Source: a virus. Taken from it: 64,000 nucleotides of DNA. Of the stretch, positions 6,323 to 57,437 are shown in pieces. The position numbers and the translations under genes were made by a program. Below the pieces are notes generated by a model. It saw only the letters and a list, made by a program, of their open reading frames with translations. It was not told the origin of the DNA and made no database searches. Where the stretch lies: IMG/VR virus record IMGVR_UViG_3300009130_000016, positions 18,902 through 82,901 of that record; one strand, given 5' to 3'. The first letter of the stretch is position 1, and each line of letters starts with the position of its first letter.

Positions 6323-6516
6323 TTTTTCACAATTTCTAATTTACAGTTGACTCCACATCCTTGACAAAATGGATGTGAGACACCTTTTGAATGTGCTATT
6401 CCGTATGCGTAACCAACATGTCCACATGCACCGCATTTACAAAACTCTCCACTTCGTATAACTTCTTCGCCTTTCTTACTAACGATTTTATGAGCATCGT
6501 GATTGAAGATTGACAT
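6319..6516 (-). CDS. Small zinc-ribbon protein
   Basis: 65 residues from the ATG at 6516. It has CKCGACGHVGYAYG and, 20 residues on, FCQGCG, forming a four-Cys zinc ribbon. A longer frame opens at 6600, but its first 28 residues run back into the upstream gene, so the internal Met (MSIFNHDAHK) is preferred. Function unknown; probable nucleic-acid or protein-binding accessory factor. Confidence 0.6.
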   Translation of the reverse strand: MSIFNHDAHKIVSKKGEEVIRSGEFCKCGACGHVGYAYGIAHSKGVSHPFCQGCGVNCKLEIVKK

Positions 6517-6562
6517 AATATAATTTAAGACGAAAGTTCCTCTAAAAAACTCAATGAGCTTC

Positions 6563-6784
6563 TTAATCTTCGTGTCCAAGATATTTTTCAAACCTTTCAA
6601 TTAAAGTGCTAAATGCCTGTGCTTTATTAACCTTCTCTTTCATCGCAAAAAAAGTGGTTTCATCATCTTTTTTCATTTGCTCGATGTGATTAAGAAGAAT
6701 GTCTCTCTCTTTCTTAACTATCGCCAGGCACTCACCGTTATTCAGTGATAGTCCTAAGTCACTTATTGTTTTGTGTGCATCCAT
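6563..6784 (-). CDS. Hypothetical helical protein
   Basis: 73 residues, mostly charged helix (KKERDILLNHIEQMKKDDET). Part of the leftward cassette. No family recognised. Confidence 0.5.
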   Translation of the reverse strand: MDAHKTISDLGLSLNNGECLAIVKKERDILLNHIEQMKKDDETTFFAMKEKVNKAQAFSTLIERFEKYLGHED

Positions 6785-13418: not shown

Positions 13419-13847
13419 ATGAGTGGTAAATATATATTCCCAAGTTTTTTTGGTAATTTTCTTCCTTTGTCTGGTGGTACAGTAACTGGCGATTCTGTTT
13501 TTACAGAAAAATTAAGTGCAGATACGATAACTACTGAAAACTTGACTGTTAAGTCAGGAACTGTATCTTCCTCAAATGTATATGAAACGAATGAGCTTAC
13601 TTTTGTTAATACAACAGGTGATTATTTTGGCAAGCTATCAACACCAAGGACAGGAACTCTAACTTTAGATATATCAAGTGCCGTAACAGGTGGTAATGTT
13701 ATTGTATATTATCAAAATGAAACTTTAGATTTACCTTTTACACCTATAAATGTGCCTGATTTTTCACCAAATCAATTATGTAAATTGTACATAGAAAGAG
13801 ATGTAGACAACAATTATACTGTAAACGTAATAGCGGTTACTGTTTAA
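13419..13847 (+). CDS. Short tail-fibre-like protein
   Basis: 142 residues. The N-terminal part has NFLPLSGGTVTGDSVFTEKL, the PLSGGTxTG motif found in many tail fibre and tip proteins, followed by Thr/Ser-rich repeats (ADTITTENLTVKSGTVSS) typical of beta-helical fibre shafts. The C-terminal part is beta-rich. Probable fibre or tip accessory. It is short, so it may be a fragment of a longer ancestral fibre or a separate attachment subunit. Confidence 0.55.
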   Translation: MSGKYIFPSFFGNFLPLSGGTVTGDSVFTEKLSADTITTENLTVKSGTVSSSNVYETNELTFVNTTGDYFGKLSTPRTGTLTLDISSAVTGGNVIVYYQNETLDLPFTPINVPDFSPNQLCKLYIERDVDNNYTVNVIAVTV

Positions 13848-52378: not shown

Positions 52379-52432
52379 TTTCTGCGTTAAAAAATTTAAA
52401 AAAGTTATTATTTATTATAGAATGTTTAAAAT

Positions 52433-53433: not shown

Positions 53434-53473
53434 AATGCCTTTGTGCGAGATTATTGCACAAAGGCATTTTTAT
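53434..53473 (+). terminator. Terminator between nrdB and nrdA
   Basis: AATGCCTTTGTGC and its exact complement (13 bp) with a 9-base loop (GAGATTATT), followed by TTTTAT. Confidence 0.9.
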
Positions 53474-53489
53474 CTAAAAAACAAAATTT

Positions 53490-54677
53490 ATGAGAATTAT
53501 TAAAAGAAACGGGAAGGAAGAAAGCCTCCGACTGGAAAAAATCACTAAAAGAATTGAGTCAGCGACTTCTTCTTTATCAGGTGTTTTAGATCCAGATTTG
53601 GTTTCCCAAAAGGTTATCTCTGGTTGCTACGATGGAATTACAACAGATGAGATTGATACTTTGGCTTGTGAGACTGCTGCTCAATTAATTATTGAACACC
53701 CAGATTACTCAATGCTTGCATCAAGACTTGCAATTACTGCATTAGAAAAAGTTACTCCTAAGAGTTTCTCTAAAGTTGTGGACAATCTTTATAATTTTAT
53801 TGATCCAATGACTGGTGATCGTGCAGGTATGATTTCTGATGAAGTTTATGACATCATCATGAAAAACAAAGACAGATTGAATTCACATATTATCCACAAG
53901 AGAGATTGGAATATCGATTTCTTCGGGTTTAGAACATTGGAGAGAGCTTATTTGTTAAGAATTAACAATAAGCCTGCAGAGAGAATTCAACATATGTGGA
54001 TGCGTGTTGCAGTTGGTATCTGGGGAGAAAATATCGATAAAGCTATTGATACTTATGATTTAATGTCAGAGAAGTATGCTACTCATGCCACACCTACATT
54101 GTTTAACTCTGGTACAAAGAGACCTCAAATGAGTTCTTGTTTCCTTATTGCAATGAAAGAAGACAGTATCGAAGGTATTTATGATACTTTGAAGCAGTCA
54201 GCTTTGATTTCTCAATCGGCTGGTGGAATTGGGCTTCACATTCACAATGTGAGAGCAACAGGTTCTTATATTAAAGGAACTAATGGTTATTCTAATGGTA
54301 TTGTTCCAATGCTTAGAAACTTCGATATGACTGCTCGTTATGTAGATCAGTGTTTTGATCCAAAAACTAATGTTAAAACAGATTCTGGTCTTGTTCCAAT
54401 TTCAGAGATCAAAGAGGGAGATAAAGTTCTTACATCTGATGGTAATTACAATACTGTAAAGAATAATAAGAAATTCCCTTTTGAAGAACGTAACTTTGTT
54501 AGATTGGATACTAAGGATGGCCATAACATAGTTACTGATGAACATTTATTTTTAGTTATTAAAAATGGAAAGGGAGTAGATAGTATTAAGGAAAAGGTGA
54601 AAAATGGACAATATTCACCTGAATGGGTAAAATCTAATGAAATAACTACTAATGATTTGTTGATTAATATGAAGTAA
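53490..54677 (+). CDS. nrdA: NrdA N-terminal half fused to N-terminal split intein
   Basis: 395 residues. Residues 1-287 are class I NrdA: an ATP-cone at the start ([21 protein letters not shown]) and the catalytic barrel up to MTARYVDQ. Residue 288 is Cys, and 288-395 ([18 protein letters not shown], block [10 protein letters not shown]) is the N-terminal part of a Hint/intein domain, after which the frame stops. The other half is encoded downstream. Protein splicing in trans is needed to rebuild a full-length NrdA of about 830 residues. Confidence 0.9.
54351..54674 (+). other. N-terminal split-intein segment
   Basis: 108 residues from Cys288 of the first NrdA piece to its stop. Starts [13 protein letters not shown] (block A) and contains [13 protein letters not shown] (block B, TxxH). 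The endonuclease region normally found after block B is missing and is replaced by the separate gene. Confidence 0.88.
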
Positions 54678-54680
54678 GAA

Positions 54681-54722
54681 TTTTCTTCCGCCTATTTATA
54701 AAAAAACAAGGCGGAAGAAAAT
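54681..54722 (+). promoter_or_regulatory. Hairpin with late-promoter motif in its loop
   Basis: ATTTTCTTCCGCC-type arm (54680-54692) pairs perfectly with GGCGGAAGAAAAT (54710-54722), 13 bp, covering the A and U of the endonuclease start codon. The loop holds CTATTTATAAAAAAAC (54692-54707), the late motif. A transcript starting from it would lack the 5' arm and leave the start codon free. Confidence 0.7.
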
Positions 54723-55611
54723 GAAAGACTTTTATAAAAACGATAAGTCAGGAAATAAGAAAAAGTACTCTTTTATGAGGGATAATTATCCAGGTATTAC
54801 AAATGAAATTATTAAATGGGGAGAAAGCAATGGTTTATTGCAATTGCCGTTTGATGAATTATCATATTTAAAATTTAATGGATTAAATAAAGTTCCTTCA
54901 GATGAAACAGGATTTAAGAAATTTAAGAGCTGGTCTAAAGGGTATAACAAGAACGGGTCGATAAAATCGATTGAAGATAAATTTATAAACAATAATTTGA
55001 TTGACTTCAAAAAAGGATTGACAGAAGACGATTATGAAATGCAAAAGAAAGGGGGTTATTTAACTCAGTTGATTAGCAACAATTACTTTTTGTATAATGA
55101 ATTAATGGGAATGTTTGACAAAGAAATTCCATTACGTCAGAAAGTTGATATGTTTTTGAATGATATCACAAAGGTTCCTAAATGTAAAGTGTGTGGAAAT
55201 AATGTTAAAGTGAGATTGACACATGGAGGATTTAGAGAAACATGCTCAGAAAAGTGCAGAAGAGAGTTAGAGGGGTCATATAAATCTTATTATATTGATG
55301 TTGATGGTGAAACCATCAAAGTTCAAGGTTATGAAAGGTTTGTGGTTCCTGTTTTGATTGAAAAATATGGACGAGATGATGTTTTGGTTGGTTTTGAAAT
55401 AAAACCTATAGAATATGAACTTAATGGTGAATTAAAAAAGTATTATCCTGACATATACATAAAAAGTGAAAACAAAATTGTAGAAGTTAAATCTACTTAT
55501 ACATTTGACTATGATAAGGAGAAAAACTTAGCAAAAAGAGAAGGGTGCATAAAGAGAGGTTTTGGGTTTGAATTTTACATTTGGGACAAAAAAGGAATGA
55601 AAATAAAATAG
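54721..55611 (+). CDS. Free-standing endonuclease gene in the intein break
   Basis: 296 residues. A four-Cys zinc finger lies in CKVCGNN...TCSEKCRRE (about 155-180). The C-terminal part has [19 protein letters not shown], the PD-(D/E)XK core (Asp, Glu, Lys), then [13 protein letters not shown]. Many free-standing homing nucleases show this plan. It lies between the two half-inteins, where an endonuclease domain would be in an intact intein. It likely cleaves intein-free nrdA alleles; the target site is not shown by the sequence. Confidence 0.85.
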
Positions 55612-55613
55612 AT

Positions 55614-55805
55614 ATGATTAACATAAAATTAGATCATCCTAACATGGATGGAGAGATAACTGAAGAGGTTGTCAAATTAGACATAGACAATGTAGAGTTT
55701 GTTGAGATAGAAAATGTCCAAAGTTTTTTAAAAACTACATCTGTTCATGATTTGGAAGTAGAAAATACACCAAACTATGTAACTGATATATCGATAGTGC
55801 ATAAT
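55614..55805 (+). other. C-terminal split-intein segment
   Basis: 64 residues before the NrdA C-extein. Contains block [19 protein letters not shown] and ends SIVHN. The +1 residue is Gly (GGC at 55806). Confidence 0.88.
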
Positions 55806-57437
55806 GGCGGTGGAAAAAGAAAAGGTTCTATTGCTATTTATTTAGAGCCATGGCATGCTGACATCTTCGAATTCTTGGATTTAAAGAAAAACCACGGTAA
55901 AGAAGAAGGTAGAGCAAGAGATTTATTCTACGCACTTTGGAATTGTGATTTATTCATGAAGAGATCTAACGAGGGCGGTACTTGGACATTATTCTCACCT
56001 GATTCAGCTCCTGGTTTATCAGACTGTTACGGTGACGAGTTCGAAGCTTTATACACAAAGTATGAGGAAGAAGGTAAAGGTATTAAAACTGTTGATGCTA
56101 GAAAACTTTGGACTAAAATCATTGAATCTCAACAAGAGACAGGCACTCCGTATATGCTTTATAAGGATGCTGCAAACAAGAAGTCTAACCAAAAGAATAT
56201 TGGTGTAATTAAGTCTTCAAATCTTTGTACAGAGATCATGGAATTTTCTAATTCAGAAGAGACTGCTGTATGTAACTTAGCATCGATAGCATTGCCAATG
56301 TTTGTGTCTTCTTCTTATAAGAGAAAGCCGAAGAAAATTGATAAATCTAAATTGTTCTTTGATCACGACAAATTGTATGAAGTTGCCTACAAGATGACTG
56401 AAAACTTAAATCAAGTTATCGACAGAAACTTCTATCCAACACCAGAGACTAAAAACTCTAACATGAAGCATAGGCCAATTGGTTTAGGTGTTCAAGGCTT
56501 AGCTGATGCGTTTGCTGTTTTAGGATTACCTTTTGATTCTCCAGAGGCAAAACAATTAAACAAGGATATATTCGAAACTATCTATTTCGCAGCTGTAACG
56601 GCTTCTGCTGACTTAGCTGAGAGAGATGGTGCCTATTCTTCATTTGAAGGTTCTCCAATGTCAGAAGGTATTTTCCAATTCGACATGTGGGAAGATAGAA
56701 AAGTTGAGAAGAATAAAGAAACAAAAGAATGGGAGATCACAGAGAGAAAGCCAGTTGAATTATCTGGAAGATGGGATTGGGATTCTTTAAAAGAGAAAGT
56801 TAAGAAAACAGGAGTTAGAAACTCATTGTTGCTTGCACCGATGCCAACAGCTTCTACTTCTCAAATTTTAGGAAACAATGAATGTTTCGAACCGTTCACT
56901 TCAAACATGTATTTGAGAAGAGTATTGTCTGGAGAGTTCCCCGTAATCAACAAACACTTGGTTAATGACTTAGTTGAGTTGGATTTGTGGGATAAGGAAA
57001 TGAGTAAGAAGATTATTTCTGAAAACGGATCTGTTCAAAACATTCCAGATATTCCTACTGATATCAAAGAAAGATACAAGACAGTTTGGGAAATGTCAAT
57101 GAAAACAATTATTGATATGGCTGCAGACAGAGGGTACTTCATTGATCAGTCACAGTCTATGAACTTATTCATCAGAGATGTAAATGCTGCTAAATTAACA
57201 GGAGCTCACTTCTACGGATGGTTAAAAGGTCTTAAGACAGGAATGTACTATTTGAGATCAAATGCTGCTCAAGCTGCCAAAGCAAGTCTTGGAGGTATAA
57301 GTAAGAAGGGGGAAGTGGTTGAAGAAGAAAAGCTTTTTAATGGTAAACGTCTTGAAGACATGACTATTGCAGAGAAACGTCAGTATCAACTAGACAACCC
57401 ATCAGATGAGGAAGGTTGTCTTGCATGCGGATCCTAG
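55614..57437 (+). CDS. nrdA: C-terminal split intein fused to NrdA C-terminal half
   Basis: 607 residues from the ATG at 55614 (a TTG 33 bases upstream is in frame but lies in the endonuclease gene). Residues 1-64 are the intein C-terminal part, ending [18 protein letters not shown] then SIVHN. The rest, [24 protein letters not shown]..., is the catalytic half of NrdA, ending with the redox CLACGS. Joining RYVDQ to GGGKRKG matches class I NrdA. The residue after the intein is Gly, not Cys/Ser/Thr. Confidence 0.9.

Follow-up and report, generated by a model that had tools for sequence, protein, structure and literature searches.

The analysed DNA (the window) is a 64-kb stretch of an 82.9-kb virus record. 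In the window, nrdA is divided into two open reading frames (ORFs), each carrying one half of an intein, with an endonuclease ORF between them, which is the arrangement of a split-intein fractured gene. Fractured genes reportedly combine split inteins with free-standing endonucleases. The features of the locus, each with the evidence used to place it, are as follows:

52409–52415, plus strand: TATTTAT upstream of nrdB (leader word count)
53434–53468, plus strand: terminator-like hairpin upstream of nrdA, followed by the one-base motif variant ATTTTTATCTAAAAA (matrix scan)
53490–54677, plus strand: N-terminal part of nrdA with the split-intein N half; intein Cys at 54351, stop codon TAA at 54675–54677 (Pfam)
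54680–54693, plus strand: 5′ arm of the hairpin (stem search, folding, shuffles)
54693–54706, plus strand: promoter-like motif TATTTATAAAAAAA in the loop, core TATTTAT at 54693–54699 (leave-one-out rank 3; top 7-mer)
54704–54708, plus strand: predicted transcription start region, placed from motif anatomy, giving RNA without the 5′ arm (folding)
54709–54722, plus strand: 3′ arm of the hairpin, containing GGCGGAAG and, downstream of it, the A and U of the ATG (folding)
54721–55611, plus strand: free-standing putative homing endonuclease gene, 296 aa, DUF7487 (PF24308, 2e-20; phrog_3339)
55614–57437, plus strand: split-intein C half and C-terminal part of nrdA (profile matches)

The N-terminal nrdA product matched the Pfam families ATP-cone, Ribonuc_red_lgN, the N-terminal part of lgC, and Hint, and was 50% identical to LR756504 over 99% of its length. 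An uninterrupted nrdA homologue (pT24) reads straight across the intein site. The closest nrdA sequences are those of Bacteroidetes phages (Tenacibaculum, Cellulophaga), and the tail sheath encoded in the window is T4-like, with Flavobacterium phage immuto among its matches. No DNA-level relatives were found among named phages. The intein (54351 and 55803) is placed between Q and GGGK, and its terminal Asn is followed by Gly, not by Cys, Ser or Thr; the same HNGGG junction occurs in the translated loci with an intein at this site (L003, L006–L041). Canonical intein splicing requires a nucleophile at position +1. With Gly at this position, either the splicing chemistry differs or the ribonucleotide reductase works in pieces, as in Aeh1.

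The ORF at 54721–55611 matched PF24308 (DUF7487, 2e-20) and the homing endonuclease family phrog_3339 (3e-6), and PD-(D/E)XK-like motifs were spotted by eye. Its homologues at the same site are 47–60% identical; no relatives were found in GTDB genomes. Its product is a putative homing endonuclease. The initial annotation missed that the gene lies in a split intein and that the cassette is mobile. The structure model had a mean pLDDT of 72, and its best, weak matches include PD-(D/E)XK-type nucleases, with no PDB match at E < 0.001, which makes any fold assignment for the endonuclease tentative.

The leader of the endonuclease gene holds a perfect stem of 14 bp, in which ATTTTCTTCCGCCT (54680–54693) pairs with AGGCGGAAGAAAAT (54709–54722) with zero mismatches around a 15-nt loop; the perfect stem had been placed correctly at 54680–54722 and counted as 13 bp. 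The minimum free energy of the hairpin was −23.6 kcal/mol (−20 to −24 kcal/mol overall) with a z-score of −7.1, and 0 of 200 shuffles were equally stable. Eight perfect stems of at least 12 bp with loops of 3–30 nt occur in the whole 82.9-kb record, compared to 0.4 in shuffled genomes, and stems of at least 14 bp arose at a rate of 0.1 per shuffled genome. Among the 82 gene leaders of the genome, the endonuclease leader ranked second in stability. CTATTTATAAAAAAAC is present in sense orientation, and the C and T at its beginning double as stem-closing bases. As proposed earlier, the A and U of the start codon are paired, with unpaired probabilities of 0.01 and 0.03, respectively, in the long RNA. 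Folding predicts that the initiation region is sequestered by a stable stem on long transcripts. The predicted accessibility of the region from −15 to +6 rose from 0.32 in the long RNA to 0.91–0.92 in RNAs starting at 54704–54710, in agreement with the suggested lock on the start codon and its release in the shorter RNA.

In an unbiased word count, TATTTAT was the most enriched 7-mer in the gene leaders of the window phage (22 occurrences versus 1.7 expected). It was also the top leader word in four other phages, G001, G002, G003 and G009 (observed/expected 11/0.56, 11/0.66, 10/0.58 and 36/5.95). The loop site scored 15 bits and ranked third record-wide with a matrix ([AC]TATTTATnAnnAAA) trained without this site. 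The distance from an A-rich tract to the motif start was steady at 11–13 nt and that from the motif to the ATG ranged from 4 to 43 nt; steady spacing on one side and variable spacing on the other make the motif promoter-like. A terminator lies just upstream in 6 of the 22 motif leaders, and several sites are a few bases from the terminator T-tract. The predicted motif stands in sense orientation and is positioned so that RNA made from it would lack the 5′ arm. The phage's own motif statistics argue for a sense-strand promoter, and TATTTAT appears to be this phage group's own element.

The motif was found at 14 of 39 virion genes versus 2 of 21 replication-module genes in the window phage, with the endonuclease left out. 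In the annotated genome of Flavobacterium phage immuto, it was found at 14 of 49 virion genes versus 11 of 140. The bias was significant when both phages were pooled (p = 2.6e-6), and because the motif favours virion genes, the loop promoter is likely of the late type. The class is not strictly late, since TATTTAT also lies upstream of nrdB (52409) and of the replicative helicase in G001–G003, and a variant precedes nrdA (53467). The earlier assumption that the nrd message is early is not supported: nrdB has TATTTAT and nrdA has the variant after a terminator-like hairpin, and therefore the nrd and endonuclease messages may use one promoter class.

Several other promoter types were considered. 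Read as its reverse complement, TATTTATA gives the T4 late element TATAAATA; this element sits on the opposite strand, so a T4 late promoter in sense orientation was ruled out for the loop. The late promoter claimed for the loop can be retained as a genuine phage promoter-like motif in the right orientation; it is not the T4 late element, and the term "late" is likely to apply by virtue of the virion bias. The Bacteroidetes host promoter TTTG-N17-22-TANNTTTG showed no excess over chance and had no match upstream of nrd, so it was rejected as the driver of the nrd operon. A generic sigma-70 scan gave fewer hits than in shuffles. No useful motif emerged from de novo matrices for G002 or G003 alone or from that for LR756504, and the de novo motif of G005 was near-palindromic and weakly specific. 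Phage-encoded sigma factors were found in the window phage (59427–60305) and in G009, and G004 has three sigma-region matches, two of them above the cut-off. None was found in the records of G001–G003, which are possibly fragments.

Single-protein searches of IMG/VR for relatives found nothing, and a search with a two-sequence alignment of the intein halves gave 36 same-site IntN loci. Many of them have the split intein without an endonuclease, with a stop codon, a short spacer and the start of the C half. Loci L007 and L011 are near-identical on both flanks and differ by ~0.93 kb at the site, where the endonuclease and its leader including TATATTTATTTGTAAAAAGGAGTATG are present in L011 and both absent from L007. 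Because L007 has neither and L011 has both, the promoter motif belongs to the endonuclease cassette. Judged by presence and absence at one site in near-identical phages, the putative endonuclease is a mobile cassette.

The leaders of these relatives vary. The closest homologous leaders (L011/L012, L025) retain the motif and lack the stable stem (z ~0). The L027/L028 leader has a weak hairpin and carries GATATATAA instead; this motif counts as one of the top leader words in the phage concerned, with a rank of 30 of 207. The absence of the strong hairpin in the former and its weakness in the latter count against the interpretation favoured below. In L030/L031, another endonuclease family lies behind a 15-bp AU-rich stem near the ATG. 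The 5′ arm contains TTAATATATATA, which ranks first among the leader motifs there but has weak specificity, and the short RNA is predicted to be modestly more open than the long RNA. Dominant leader motifs differ in related phages, being GATATATAA in G004 and TTAATATATATA in G005.

Other elements were noted during this comparison. A group I intron (RF00028, 70 bits) follows the intein at L034:3062–3359, directly after GGGK in nrdA, so intein and intron share nearly one nrdA site; intron look-alikes in L003 (perhaps 6390–6690), L036 and L041 were below the Rfam cut-off. The window phage has a second endonuclease gene, MTES_1575/DUF559-like with NUMOD3, at L005:13557–14549 (window −5344 to −4352). 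It begins right after a terminator. Because TATTTATAACCAAA is located ~45 nt into the mechanical ORF, translation may in fact start at a later ATG near 13629.

Checking every TATTTAT site for enclosing stems led to phage G009. There (L041:5622–5670), a GIY-YIG endonuclease gene (PF22945) lies between the halves of a different nrdA intein, and its leader reads GTAACTTCCATAATT-ATAAGATATTTATTATTA-AATTATGGAAGTTATG, a 15-bp stem with TATTTAT in the loop. The stem base holds the second ATG of the ORF, the predicted accessibility is 0.18 for the long RNA and 0.63–0.68 for the short RNA, and the leader ranks second of 164 in stability. The two endonucleases differ in both sequence family and insertion site. 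On sequence and predicted folding, G009 is a second, independent instance of the device combining a hairpin with a loop motif, and this strengthens the case for convergence made in the initial annotation. The nrdA of G009 (L041:1913–6458) apparently has three inteins, of which one is large and contiguous and two are split; of the split inteins, one has the GIY-YIG endonuclease and the other has none.

Across 583 leaders of six Bacteroidetes-type phages, six perfect start-spanning stems of at least 14 bp were found versus 0.08 per shuffled set, and four stems of at least 12 bp enclosed TATTTAT versus 0.08 in shuffled sequences. Two of the six stems are those of the endonucleases, and one belongs to an IS200-type transposase that lacks the motif; the others are a palindrome in G003, counted once per strand, and the stem of an antisense TTG-start ORF that is probably no gene. 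In the G003 palindrome (G003:47278–47311, L051:7278–7311), 15 bp of the promoter motif itself pair with the start codon of a 323-aa gene. The transposase is an IS200-type Y1 enzyme of G009 (L059:17972–18382, minus strand) with its start region in an 18-bp stem.

We consider it probable that 54680–54722 is a 5′ control element that restricts synthesis of the cassette endonuclease to transcripts of its own, probably late, promoter. The cassette with this leader would have been inserted between the split-intein halves in nrdA. When nrd transcription reads through, the 14-bp hairpin in the resulting mRNA would hide the start codon and the region upstream of it, and the endonuclease would hardly be translated. 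The dominant, virion-gene-biased motif of the phage, TATTTATAAnnAAA, would act as a promoter in the loop. Initiation at about 54704–54708 would then give a transcript without the 5′ arm and with a short open leader. If the hairpin blocks the long mRNA and the loop promoter supplies an open RNA, endonuclease output would depend solely on this probably late promoter, in the manner of I-TevI and Aeh1 mobE.

The same arrangement could serve insulation instead of timing. The hairpin would block any outside transcript, as in IS elements, while nrd and the endonuclease would share a promoter class and be expressed at the same time. Start-codon stems of IS10, IS50 and IS200 are classical protection against read-through, and the IS200-type transposase of G009 has its 18-bp start-codon stem without a promoter motif. 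Insulation overlaps with control by a late promoter, with timing as the sole difference, and it is a serious alternative because nrdB has TATTTAT and nrdA a close variant. Nevertheless, the nrd sites score lower (8.4 bits for nrdB and 13.6 for nrdA, with T at position 2, versus 16.0 for the endonuclease), and the motif is biased toward virion genes in two phages. We therefore regard insulation without timing as possible, on the less probable side.

The proximity of nrdA-N to the stem raises the matter of translational coupling, which has been discussed for T4 mobE (PMC2988022). Only 2 nt separate the nrdA-N stop codon (54677) from the stem. Ribosomes that terminate there could melt its base and reinitiate at 54721, tying endonuclease output to nrdA-N; in folding, masking the stem up to 54683–54689 frees the endonuclease ATG. 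However, the 43 nt from stop to start are long for reinitiation and the inner stem remains paired, and coupling accounts neither for the promoter motif in the loop nor for its arrival with the cassette, which makes it unlikely. Finally, the hairpin could be a terminator, an RNA-processing element or an mRNA-end element that overlaps the ATG incidentally, given that a stable GC-containing stem stands right after a stop codon in a genome where many stems are terminators. We consider this very improbable, as the stem ends exactly in the start codon and identical geometry occurs at the unrelated endonuclease gene of G009. An intrinsic terminator at 54680–54722 was ruled out because the stem has no U-tract beside it on either strand.

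Control by a start-codon hairpin with a resident promoter has precedents. The same logic is described for I-TevI, I-TevII, I-TevIII, segB and Aeh1 mobE (PMC2988022). In the T4 set (I-TevI, I-TevII, I-TevIII and SegB), a hairpin sequesters the ribosome-binding site on long transcripts and an own late or middle promoter yields RNA unable to form it (PMC2988022); for the window gene, such a hairpin and an own promoter are predicted. The T4 enzymes are mostly intron-encoded GIY-YIG or HNH endonucleases and were studied experimentally, whereas the present case is predicted from sequence. The initial comparison was with I-TevI, but the nearest precedent is mobE of Aeromonas phage Aeh1, also inside nrdA, which has its own late promoter in the hairpin region (PMC2988022).

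Like the window gene, Aeh1 mobE is a free-standing endonuclease gene between two nrdA parts. When refolded, its leader (L097) formed a perfect 13–14 bp stem abutting the AUG (−20.9 versus −20.3 kcal/mol here over comparable spans), and the distance from nrdA stop to endonuclease start is 46 nt versus 43 nt here. The differences lie in the components. MobE is an HNH enzyme, in contrast to DUF7487 here, with no protein sequence similarity between them, which bears out the earlier statement that the endonuclease is unrelated. Its promoter is of the T4 late type rather than TATTTAT, no Hint domain was found in the Aeh1 nrdA parts in contrast to the split intein here, and Aeh1 belongs to Straboviridae, whereas the window phage is of the Bacteroidetes type. 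Because Aeh1 mobE is almost superimposable, the mechanism is already known and the window case is a convergent addition; within the reach of sequence comparison, convergence and not inheritance accounts for the device. The locus resembles fractured genes as reportedly described (Dassa et al. 2009) in that a split intein interrupts the host gene and an endonuclease ORF separates the two intein halves. It also resembles IS200-type transposase genes, in which stems occlude initiation on outside transcripts, although the loop of the one such stem in G009 has no promoter motif.

The unexpected part is that the device recurs in Bacteroidetes-type phages, which have another type of promoter, and that the endonucleases involved are unrelated. 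This indicates that a device of T4-like proteobacterial phages arose again at least two times in phages whose promoter system differs, for unrelated endonucleases and once more in nrdA as the kind of host gene. A further product of the analysis is a de novo promoter motif for a Bacteroidetes-type phage group that has received little study. The promoter part is possibly fitted to each host phage, being TATTTAT in the window phage and G009 and possibly GATATATAA in G004; for L030/L031 the candidate is TTAATATATATA, located in the 5′ arm. With slightly less than even confidence, we propose that split-intein endonuclease cassettes have repeatedly and independently built a resident promoter into a start-codon hairpin, rewritten for each host phage, as a general silencing solution. 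If this is true, a hairpin with a resident promoter would be a general way to silence an invader on the message of a host operon, and its recurrence in nrdA makes it testable as a general rule for selfish endonucleases in essential operons.
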